Part shown: piece by piece, positions 37,547 to 41,613 of the stretch
How positions within the stretch are numbered: position 1 is the stretch's first letter
Layout: the number at the start of each line of letters is the position of its first letter
DNA from: Salinigranum marinum
GTDB lineage: Archaea; Halobacteriota; Halobacteria; Halobacteriales; Haloferacaceae
DNA length: 64,000 nucleotides
Reading direction: 5' to 3'
Assembly (NCBI RefSeq): GCF_024228675.1
Contig: NZ_CP100461.1
Span: 2,291,398-2,355,397, forward strand
Position numbers and translations under genes: made by a program
Notes under the pieces: generated by a model
Told to the model about the DNA's origin: nothing
What the model saw: only the letters and a program-made list of their open reading frames with translations
The model's database searches: none

Positions 37547-38790
37547 ATGTACTACGCCTACAAGTACCGTCAAAGCCGTCCGACGCCCACCGTGAGGAGT
37601 TGGACCGACACCGAGACATTTGTAGGCAACTGTACAATCACGCGCTCTACCGCTTCGACCAAATTTCCGAGGGCGCAGGCACGCTCAATCAGCGTGTTCG
37701 GTCCATCCGAGACGAAATCCCGTCCCTGAAAGACTGGTGGGATGGCCTCTCGGACGTGTATTCAACAGTTCTGCAAACCACAGTCATGCGAATCGAGCAG
37801 AACGTCAAAGGACTCTCGGCACTCAAGGAAACGGATACGGCGTCGGCCAACTCAAGTGGAAGCCACCACGGGAGTTCCGCAGTTTTCACGTACAGTCAGT
37901 CTGGCTTCAAGCTCGACAAGAAGGGTGGTCAGACTGTGCTGTCACTCTCGAAACTCGCGGACATACCGATTCGGCTTCACCGCGCCATCCCCGACGACGC
38001 CACGCTCAAGCAGGTCACGCTCAAGAAAGAGCCGACGGGCGAGTGGTTTGCCACCTTCGGCGTCCAACTGGACCGTGAACCGCCTGAGACACCCGAGAAT
38101 CCCGAGAAGTGCGTCGGCATCGACGTAGGGATTCTCAAGTACGCCCACGACACCGACGGCACGGCGGTCGGGTCGCTCGACCTCTCCGACGAACGCGAAC
38201 GCTTGGAGCGCGAGCAACGGAAACTCTCGCGGAAGCAACACGGGTCGAACAACTACGAGAAGCAACGGCGGCGCGTGGCGGGGTGTCACGCCGACCTTCG
38301 ACGGAAGCGCCGCGACTTCTTGCACAAGCTCTCGAACTACTACGCTCGGGAGTACGACCTCGTAGCGGTCGAAGACCTGAACGTGAAGGGGATGCTGGAG
38401 TCGCCGTCGAACAGCCGCAACACGGCGTCGGCGGCGTGGCGGACGTTCCTCTCGTTGCTCGAATACAAGTGTGAGCGGAAGGGAACGCACTTCGTCGCGG
38501 TCAACCCGAGAGGGACGACCAAAGAGTGCGCGTCGTGTGGTGTCTCGACAGAGAAACCGTTGTGGGTCCGTGAACACTCCTGTCCCTCGTGCGGGTTCGA
38601 GGCGGACAGAGACGCGAACGCGGCGTGGAACATTCTTTCTCGTGGGCTCAAAGACGTAGGAGTGGGATACTCCGAATCAACGCCTGTGGAGACTGCGCTC
38701 CCTGTGGATACACCTGTGTCTGCAAAGCGCGTCGTGGAAGCAGGAAGCCCTACCCTCAAGGAGCGAACGGCGTCAGCCGTGAGCGAGTAG
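37547..38790 (+). pseudogene. tnpB: TnpB-like gene with three frame lesions
   Basis: ATG at 37547 (MYYAYKYR) loses frame after about eight residues (one base missing at CGTCAAAGCC) and resumes as LDRHRDICRQLYNHALYRFD. A second pair of compensating shifts near 37830-37885 replaces the expected GYGVGQLKWKPPREFRSF with nonsense. The catalytic part is intact: GIDVGILKYAHDT, VAVEDLNVKGML, the zinc ribbon CASCG..CPSCG, and ADRDANAAWNIL. The element is inserted in an antitoxin gene and ends with GTTCAC at 38807-38812. Confidence 0.75.
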
Positions 38791-39006: not shown

Positions 39007-39360
39007 TCAGTCGAGACCAAGACTCAATTTCAACGCTTCGTCAACCTCCAGCATCGTCGGACTGTCTAGTGAGCCGACGACAGAGTGAATACGTTGTTCG
39101 ATGGAAATCGCACGAATCTGGTCGAGCCGAATCGAAGAATCCTTCTCGAAGGGAGAGCCCGGCGCCTCGACCAACACCTCGAATGGGTACCCCCGATAGG
39201 TTCCTGTCGCAGGTGCGACGATAGTCGTCCCAGAGTTCTTGTTTCCGATGTCGTTTTGCACGACGACCGCCGGTCGCGTCTTGTTCATTTCGTGTCCTTC
39301 CGCCGGGTCAAGCCGGACGATGACGACGTCTCCGCGTCTTACCTCTGGGCGTTCGCTCAT
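39007..39360 (-). CDS. mazF: MazF-like endoribonuclease toxin (intact)
   Basis: 117 aa. PemK/MazF fold markers: VRRGDVVIVRLDPAEGHE, KTRPAVVVQNDIGNKN, TTIVAPATGTYRGYPFEV and SIRLDQIRAISIEQRI, including the conserved RPAVVVQN and Q-x-R elements around the RNA site. Normal length, no frame damage. Overlaps the antitoxin end by ATGA (39357-39360). Confidence 0.88.
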   Translation of the reverse strand: MSERPEVRRGDVVIVRLDPAEGHEMNKTRPAVVVQNDIGNKNSGTTIVAPATGTYRGYPFEVLVEAPGSPFEKDSSIRLDQIRAISIEQRIHSVVGSLDSPTMLEVDEALKLSLGLD

Positions 39361-39593
39361 TCATCAAGTCCGCTCCAGGCTTCGTCCGAGGTTTCGTCCC
39401 ACTCTTTGCCAAGAGAGGCTGCACTCTCGGACGCCTCGCGGTATGCGGCGGCCAGTTCATCTTCGTCAGGACGGTCGGATTCGACCTCGACAACGGCAAC
39501 TGTGACGCGCTTGTTCGCGTATTCGGTTCCGAGATAGATTCGTCCTCGGTCGTCGGTTTCGTTCGTTCGCAAGTCGTTGGCGTCAACTTTCAT
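39357..39593 (-). CDS. mazE: MazE-like antitoxin (intact)
   Basis: 78 aa from MKVDANDLRTN (39593); four in-frame codons upstream allow a slightly earlier start at 39605. A short beta-rich N-terminus (RGRIYLGTEYANKRVTVAVV) and an acidic helical tail (DELAAAYREASESAASLGKE) for toxin binding. Coupled to mazF by ATGA. A short direct repeat of an ACCCACTA-like sequence (39600-39650) lies upstream and may be the operator. Confidence 0.82.
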   Translation of the reverse strand: MKVDANDLRTNETDDRGRIYLGTEYANKRVTVAVVEVESDRPDEDELAAAYREASESAASLGKEWDETSDEAWSGLDE

Positions 39594-39677
39594 CTTGCTA
39601 CCCACTATAACCCACTACTACTTGAAGACTACCCACCATAGCCCACTCTGAATAGCCTCGGAGAGCGAAATGGCATC

Positions 39678-39924
39678 AACAGTTCGAGAAGCCGTGCATC
39701 GTCTTTGAAGACCTCAAAGAGCTGCGCGACAGTATCGACTACGGTACACGGATGAACCGGCGATTGCACCCCCCTCCCGTTCCGCGCTCGTCAGTTCTAT
39801 ACGTCATACAAGACGTCATTTGAGGGTATCCCAACCGCGTGGATTGACCCCGCGTACACGAGTCAACGATGCCCGATGTGTGGACATACGGAGCGCACGA
39901 ACCGAAACAAGAAGCGGTTCAAAT
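39678..39924 (+). pseudogene. TnpB fragment split by a composite transposon (5' part)
   Basis: Encodes QFEKPCIVFEDLKELRDSID, YTSQRCPMCGHTERTNRNKK and so on, close to residues 155-240 of the TnpB at 4671. A small insertion shifts frame near 39770 (CACCCCCCTCCC). The reading continues across the transposon at 41553-41613 (CQSCSHQNHSDRGASV) and stops. Confidence 0.72.
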
Positions 39925-40045
39925 TGCTCTGTTGAATAGCGTTTGATCCGGTCGCTTTCACCGGGTTAAAAGGGTGAAGTCGAGGAATTCGCCTCTGTCC
40001 ATGGAAGTCGAACTCCTCGACTTCGTTAAGCAGTGTCACCTGTTT
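39925..40045 (+). mobile_element. Truncated left IS of the composite transposon
   Basis: Homologous to the first 120 bases of the right IS read on its own strand: same terminal repeat, GGTGAAGTCGAGGAA and the transposase start MEVELLDFVKQCH. It breaks off after 14 codons. Divergence from the right IS shows that these are two related elements and not one duplicated copy. Confidence 0.7.
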
Positions 40046-40159
40046 CGGCCGAAAATATAAATAATAGGTGGCCCATTGTTTATTGTTAACAAATAGCAAT
40101 GGCCACTCATTCGCCTGCCTCCCTGGGAAGCATCAAGTGAAGATGGGACCTGATCTCGG

Positions 40160-40633
40160 ATGCCAGCCACGTACTTCATAACCATCGAGCCGGTTACCGA
40201 GAGCGAGGATGAGGTCCGGCAGATTTTAATCGGGCTTATGAACTCCGAACAACGTGTATCGGAACTCATCGAATCAGGCGGCGTCGTGAGAGAAACGGAC
40301 GACGAAGAAGAGGCAGATTTCATAGATGAGCGTCTGCAGGAGGCTGGCGCCCAAGTCAAAATCAAGCGAAGAGAATCGCAATCAGATGAAGCCGAAGAGT
40401 TCGATGTTGAAGAGAGCCTCCAGAGCGAGCCACTTGACAGAGACATGCCATTAGAGAGCATCAAAGGGATCGGTCCCACCCGAGCGGAAGAGCTCAGGGC
40501 AATCGGTTTCGAGACGGTAGCGGATGTGACAGACGCGAGCAGCGAAGATCTGACTGCGGCTGATAATATCGGCAACTCGCTGGCAGAACGAATCCTCGAT
40601 ACTGTTAGAAGTAGGCCGATTCTGCTCTGTTGA
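40160..40633 (+). CDS. Helix-hairpin-helix protein, cargo of the composite transposon
   Basis: 157 aa. The N-terminal half (MPATYFITIEPVTESEDEVR and on) has an alpha/beta pattern resembling a ribosomal L7/L12 C-terminal-like domain; an acidic linker follows. The C-terminal 60 residues form a helix-hairpin-helix: SIKGIGPTRAEELRAIGFET, VADVTDASSEDLTAADNIGN. Such domains bind DNA non-specifically. The last four codons (ILLC) and the stop lie in the terminal repeat of the right IS, so the native C-terminus may have been clipped. Cargo status is inferred from the outer duplication. Confidence 0.72.
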   Translation: MPATYFITIEPVTESEDEVRQILIGLMNSEQRVSELIESGGVVRETDDEEEADFIDERLQEAGAQVKIKRRESQSDEAEEFDVEESLQSEPLDRDMPLESIKGIGPTRAEELRAIGFETVADVTDASSEDLTAADNIGNSLAERILDTVRSRPILLC

Positions 40634-41552
40634 ATAGATGCTGAGTCATGGTTACAGCGGCTCACACAGTGATTCTACGTTAATGATGGCGAACATCAGT
40701 ACAATTTCACGGAACTGTCGATACCAGCCCAGCGCTCGCACGGCGTCGCCGAGCGAGCGCTTCGTTATCGAGTACGAGGATTCAGCCATCCAGCGCTGAG
40801 AATAGCCTTTTGTTCGGATGAGCGCGTTGTTCATGGCTGCTTTCGGTGATGAACCGCGGTAGTGGACGAGATACTCAACTCGTGTGCGGCAATCTCGTAC
40901 TCAGTGTGCCAGTCTTGAAACCCGTTGTCGGCGGCGACGGTCAGCAGGTCGTCCGCGTTCCGGCGGACGACCTGCGGCCCGGTCTTCGTATCGTGTTTCC
41001 ACCGAGCCGTGATGTGGACGTCAAGAACAGCGAGCGACTCCACATCAGTTAATGTCGTCACTTTCAGCGTCTGTACAGTGCTTCCCGACCGCTGACGGAA
41101 GTACGACGACGCACGACGGCGGTCGAAGAAGGTGCTGTCGAGAGCGGCGTTCCCAGAGTGCGGGTGTTGCTGCGCTGAAACGCGCAGCAACGCCCGCCAC
41201 ACCCACACTTTGAACCGATCGAACGACTTGTAGACCGTGCTGAACTCGGGCAGGTCGTCCCGATCAAGCCCGAGTACATCACGTATCTCAGTCATGTACT
41301 CCAGCCGATTCGGCGTTTCACGGTAGCTATGGCCCTCTTCGAGCCGAAAGCAGTGTAGAACGACGTGAATCCAGCGGGCGAACCCGCCGCTGGCAGGCTC
41401 GCCCGCGTGCTTCCCCAACGCTTGTTTGGCTAGGTGACGACACCGTTCAATGAAGTCGAGGAGGTCGACTTCCATAAGTCAGAATCGAGTTCCTCGACTT
41501 CACCTGTCTAAAACAACGATATCAACCAGTTCGACCGCTATTCAACAGAGCA
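40623..41552 (-). mobile_element. IS5-type element, right component of the composite transposon
   Basis: 930 bp from TGCTCTGTTGAATAG (40623-40637) to the outer right end. Its own flanks (AGGCCGATTC left, GTTCAAAT right) do not match, unlike those of the larger unit. Confidence 0.78.
40652..41475 (-). pseudogene. IS5-type transposase with one frameshift
   Basis: The first 214 codons (41475-40831) hold the two Asp motifs (AALDSTFFDRR, VAADNGFQDW). The frame is lost at CACGAGTTGAG near 40895: the other frame restores VEYLVHYRGSSPKAAMNNAL and carries the Glu (WMAESSYSITKR), ending at 40652. A transposase supplied in trans is needed. Internal hairpins: 40944-40956 with 40963-40975 (13 bp perfect) and 41166-41175 with 41182-41191. 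Confidence 0.82.
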
Positions 41553-41613
41553 GTTCAAATGTCAGTCGTGTTCCCATCAAAACCACAGCGACCGTGGTGC
41601 AAGCGTGAGATAG
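41553..41613 (+). pseudogene. TnpB fragment, 3' part
   Basis: Continues the zinc-ribbon region from the other side of the transposon (FKCQSCSHQNHSDRGASV) and reaches a TAG at 41611-41613. The final RuvC Asp (SDRGAS) is kept, but the tail and right-end hairpin are missing. Confidence 0.65.

Follow-up and report, generated by a model that had tools for sequence, protein, structure and literature searches.

The question raised by this locus of the haloarchaeon Salinigranum marinum is whether a small gene and the insertion sequence (IS) ends that enclose it entered a tnpB relic as one block, or were assembled there piece by piece. All coordinates refer to the window, the whole stretch of 64,000 nucleotides that was analysed.

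Ends and flanking duplication of the unit

Inspection of the sequence placed the unit at 39925-41552 (1628 bp). Its outer ends are inverted and identical at 17 of 17 bp, with TGCTCTGTTGAATAGCG at 39925 and TGCTCTGTTGAATAGCG on the opposite strand at 41552, and an exact 8-bp duplication, GTTCAAAT, is read directly from the sequence on both sides (39917-39924 on the left, 41553-41560 on the right). The size, perfect ends and perfect duplication proposed in a sequence-only reading of this DNA were thus confirmed. Both outer ends are of the IRL type, that is, the end on the transposase-start side, which reads ...GCGRTC; the inner end at 40623 has 15 bp in common with them and is an IRR, reading ...ATGCTGAGTCA. 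With IRL on both outer sides and IRR inside, the layout is that of an inverted composite. The 8 bases left of the inner end are GCCGATTC, as against GTTCAAAT, and so carry no matching duplication; a matching duplication belongs to the outer pair of the unit only, the right IS alone being without one.

The right IS and its IS5-family group

The right IS is a full-length element of 930 bp on the minus strand (40623-41552), with its IRR at 40623 and its IRL at 41552. It shares 91% identity with an element on a Salinigranum rubrum plasmid that carries IS5-family annotation, and about 85% with ISHla3. Its transposase is in two frames: a 5' part of 214 aa up to that frame's stop (40831-41475, minus strand) and a 3' part in another frame (40652-40834, minus strand), which holds, beyond the lesion, the conserved motif ...YSQRWMAESSYSITKR, presumably with the catalytic Glu of the IS5-type Y-R-E-K. 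Comparison with the intact S. rubrum copy showed one base missing near 40879/40880 and no further gap in the element, so that the frameshift seen earlier comes down to a single 1-bp deletion. The transposase scored 31.2 bits with PF01609, above the cut-off of 23, while the broken frame matched NF033579 with an E-value of 9e-30, yet below the cut-off of that profile; close relatives of the element carry IS5 family annotation. On these matches the right IS is classed in the IS5 family, with a predicted DDE transposase of the IS5 type. It resembles the haloarchaeal IS5-family elements of the ISHla3, ISNph4 and ISHma11 kind in its length (~930 bp), similar ends, 8-bp duplications and transposase, and differs from them in the 1-bp transposase deletion.

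Two further copies of the IS lie in this genome, at C1:3102518 and C1:2986106. They are flanked by 8-bp duplications (TTTCAGTC and AGATATTT), and their transposase frames are open over 275 aa when counted from the preceding stop. Among the matches listed, an exact 8-bp duplication was present in 16 of the 27 full-length IS copies and, of 52 pairs of these ends at MITE length, in 30; 8 bp is therefore taken as the duplication length of this IS group.

Two copies of irregular structure were also observed. One, on contig C2 of the S. marinum genome, is split into halves ~88 kb apart (309326-309810, locus L004 1502-1993, and 398079-398534, locus L005); the duplications at its outer sides agree (GGACATTC), and 8 bp of the query are present in both halves, as if another IS had inserted and an inversion had followed. 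The other (locus L157, 107-1268) is interrupted by an insert of ~230 bp whose ends (TGCTCTATTGAAAA) resemble those of the IS itself, and was rejected as a longer unit, being an IS split by this insert.

The left IS remnant and the stretch before the cargo

The left component (39925-40037, plus strand; 113 bp) consists of an IRL end, a leader and the first ~12 transposase codons, starting from an ATG at 40001. It is 87-88% identical to IS copies in two other genomes (G369 and G388) and 77% identical to the right IS. The two IS components had been described as different, and these identities bear this out, indicating that the left remnant and the right IS come from distinct members of one IS group. 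The homology stops at 40037, which corrects the point of truncation from the 14 transposase codons first given to about 12.

Between this remnant and the cargo lies an A+T-rich stretch (40038-40159, plus strand; 46% GC) for which no match was found. It includes a TATA-like TATAAATA, from which a promoter role may be inferred, and an imperfect palindrome, CCATTGTTTATTGTTAACAAATAGCAATGG (40073-40102), which could be an operator or a product of chance. An ORF of 13 codons starts at 40099.

The target is a tnpB relic

Alignment with related tnpB genes identified a tnpB relic upstream of the unit (39680-39916, plus strand) and its continuation downstream (41561-41606, plus strand). Taking out the unit and one 8-mer gives a relic that reads ...CPMCGHTERTNRNKKRFKCQSCSHQNHSDRGAS, which is the zinc-finger end of TnpB; of 170 genomes in the family, 64 have tnpB copies matched by this joined sequence. 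The joined flanks align, with no gap at the joint, to uninterrupted tnpB at six related-genome loci (six of eleven fetched tnpB loci, the five without a usable alignment being left out). A tnpB copy at about 4.5-5.7 kb of the same window has the identical GGTTCAAATGTC at the joint, its best alignment having small gaps a few bases beyond it. That the host is a tnpB relic whose reading resumes cleanly after the unit is hence upheld by the six gapless joints. The search for an empty site in related genomes was answered in part: uninterrupted tnpB relatives were recovered, all of them related copies at other loci, and no close strain with the orthologous site empty was found.

The neighbourhood of the relic holds further genes. 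A long TnpB-like ORF with OrfB_IS605 and Cas12f1-like_TNB domains lies ~1 kb before it (37600-38790, plus strand), and a MazF-like toxin gene (39007-39605, minus strand; NCBIfam MazF, E 3e-14) adjoins it, with a small overlapping gene upstream of the toxin gene that is probably the antitoxin.

Probable movement of the unit as a composite transposon

The unit is very probably an inverted composite transposon, a block that moved as one. The outer ends, the 8-bp duplication, the alignment across the emptied site and the opposite type of the inner end all speak for the earlier proposal that it moved as a whole. A small gene elsewhere would have become enclosed by two distinct members of a single haloarchaeal IS5-family group. 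A transposase recognising the 17-bp IRL ends common to both would then have cut at the two outermost ends, and the 1628-bp block would have inserted into the tnpB relic, duplicating 8 bp. The identical tips would fit such cross-recognition. A cut-and-paste mode, the place of origin and the state of the left IS before the move belong to this proposed course of events; the ends and their types, the duplication, the continuity of the target across the joint and the identity of the ISs are seen directly. Mobility is read here from a single insertion, since only one copy of the unit is known.

The transposase could have been that of the right IS, if the 1-bp deletion arose later, or that of an intact copy acting in trans, and the two intact copies elsewhere in the genome leave both sources available. 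The statement that it was supplied from elsewhere was accordingly softened to one possibility, the right IS being one base from intact and perhaps broken after the move. Today the unit is non-autonomous, as the right transposase is broken and only 113 bp of the left IS are left.

As a class, the unit conforms to known composite transposons in the structural features tested, except for a complete transposase today. Related ISs flank a non-IS gene, the left one as a 113-bp end only, and one duplication of the IS's own length surrounds the outer ends; neither IS now encodes a functional transposase, the right one carrying the 1-bp deletion and the left one being truncated. A functional transposase is needed for an autonomous composite and not for a remnant mobilised in trans. 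Tn5 and Tn10 likewise have a gene between two inverted ISs, use the outer ends and show one duplication around the whole. They differ from the present unit, in which the ISs are different members of a group, the left one is reduced to its end, neither transposase is complete today, the cargo is without known benefit and there is a single copy. In Tn5, too, one IS may be defective, namely IS50L (PMC10969869).

Of the other histories considered, recombination survives best, and it is improbable. An IS flanked by the duplication GTTCAAAT would first have occupied tnpB, and a second copy would then have recombined with it, bringing the left end and the cargo between the duplication and the IS. IS-mediated rearrangement is the standard alternative reading of duplications common to two ISs, as noted in the ISsaga paper (PMC3129680), and the split copy described above shows that another copy of the IS in this genome has already been separated, over ~88 kb. 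However, recombination within the IS would leave an unrelated left flank or two full IS copies, whereas the left end of the unit belongs to a different IS member and lies exactly against the duplication; this course also needs more steps.

It is still less probable that the right IS arrived on its own next to a left remnant and cargo already in place, the outer 8-mers agreeing by chance or target preference. In favour of this, 10 of the 27 full-length copies among the matches listed are without a match within one base, so that a single IS with flanks that do not match is nothing rare; the missing duplication at the inner end, which had been pointed out before and was confirmed, therefore says little when taken alone. 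Chance agreement was gauged by cross-pairing left and right flanks between different copies of the IS, and of the MITEs with its ends, among the matches listed, a control that includes the IS's own mild target preference. None of 6162 cross-pairs matched at 8 of 8 positions and 0.15% matched at 7 of 8; the outer match is thus not due to chance. In addition, the tnpB frame rejoins at exactly the same point.

Assignment of the unit to the MITEs, or to the transporter ISs (a single IS carrying a passenger gene), is hardly credible: haloarchaea do abound in ~127-bp MITEs that have these ends on either side and 8-bp duplications, but only ~17-bp ends are common to them and the unit, which holds a whole IS with an inner IRR as well as IS coding sequence on the left. 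The MITE class was accordingly rejected for a block of 1628 bp with an IS and a cargo ORF, as was a MITE origin of the left end, with only the tips in common; the transporter IS was rejected on the two outer IRL ends and the whole IS inside.

The MITEs themselves (loci L086, L089, L133, L185 and others) form a widespread haloarchaeal family of ~127 bp, with IRL tips at both ends, 8-bp duplications and an interior unrelated to the IS. They are like the unit in the IRL-type tip on both sides and the 8-bp duplication, and unlike it in being without cargo and without IS coding sequence, the terminal ~17 bp alone being in common. MITEs depend on transposase supplied in trans (PMC3119063).

The cargo protein

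The cargo ORF (40160-40633, plus strand) encodes 157 aa with a pI of 4.1 and 25% Asp+Glu, as expected of a haloarchaeal protein. The GC content at codon positions 1, 2 and 3, computed for this ORF alone, is 63, 39 and 58%, which fits coding sequence. The ORF extends into the right IS by 11 bp, so that its last codons and stop (...SRPILLC stop) are IS sequence. With the stop codon inside the IS, the natural 3' end may be lost, and the cargo may be a truncated gene with its 3' end replaced by the IS.

The helix-hairpin-helix (HHH) C-terminus noticed earlier was borne out by a match of residues 98-150 to HHH_5 (PF14520; 45.3 bits against a gathering cut-off of 27). By sequence this domain is closest to the N-terminal HHH found in haloarchaeal eL32, with about 50% identity along ~51 residues. 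The body of eL32 is absent from the cargo, and the NCBIfam eL32 profile gave 46.1 bits against a cut-off of 239, over the HHH part only; identification as ribosomal protein eL32 was rejected on this score.

For the N-terminus, the likeness to L7/L12 held for the predicted fold and not for the sequence score, Ribosomal_L12 (PF00542) giving 20.4 bits, under its gathering cut-off of 25.9. A single-sequence AlphaFold2 model of low confidence (mean pLDDT 63, pTM 0.33) folds residues about 1-73 as beta-alpha-alpha-beta-alpha-beta, the fold of ClpS and of the bacterial L7/L12 C-terminal domain. In structural comparison, the N-terminal domain of this model (mean pLDDT 63) matched ClpS with a Z-score of 8.9 (70 residues at an rmsd of 1.8); for the C-terminal domain of L7/L12 the score was 7.7-7.8, so that the two fit about equally well. 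A ClpS/L7-L12-like fold is therefore offered as a low-confidence lead; unlike either protein, the cargo has this domain joined to an HHH.

Relatives of the N-terminal part were sought widely. None was found in plasmids or in 391 Halobacteria genomes, where the cargo was looked for as a native gene; 247 genomes of the phylum gave only matches at E 0.005-0.01, two of which were inspected and fell on unrelated reading frames. Phage matches concerned the HHH part only, scans of genome and viral contigs, which reach close relatives only, returned no N-terminal relative, PF00542 had no match above cut-off in 242 genomes of the class, and a viral structure search gave nothing at E <= 0.001. The unit is present in one copy in its own genome, and no cargo-bearing unit was found elsewhere in the genomes sampled. 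The expectation that the cargo might recur between other ends of this IS was not borne out: in 8-kb loci fetched by the IS end, among the matches listed, no second pair of IRL ends spanning 150 bp to 8 kb had a matching duplication.

The cargo gene is probably a captured bystander; as a guess from its domains, it may encode a small adaptor-like protein that binds nucleic acids. The cargo is unlikely to be a real, expressed member of an unrecognised class, a ClpS/L7-L12-type adaptor joined to an HHH, that travels between haloarchaea on IS ends.

Implications

Composite transposition by an IS5-family group in a haloarchaeon is well documented here in one instance; no natural composite transposon in haloarchaea was found in the literature searched (open-licence papers). 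Its ends come from two IS members that are 77% identical over 113 bp and identical in their 17-bp tips, a hint that the transposase may need no more than the outermost ~17 bp in order to pair two ends. The mechanism of the jump is ordinary; the carried gene alone is unusual, being a pairing of domains for which no relative was found. What the locus records is an orphan gene very probably carried, as a block, into an old transposon gene of a salt-loving archaeon.
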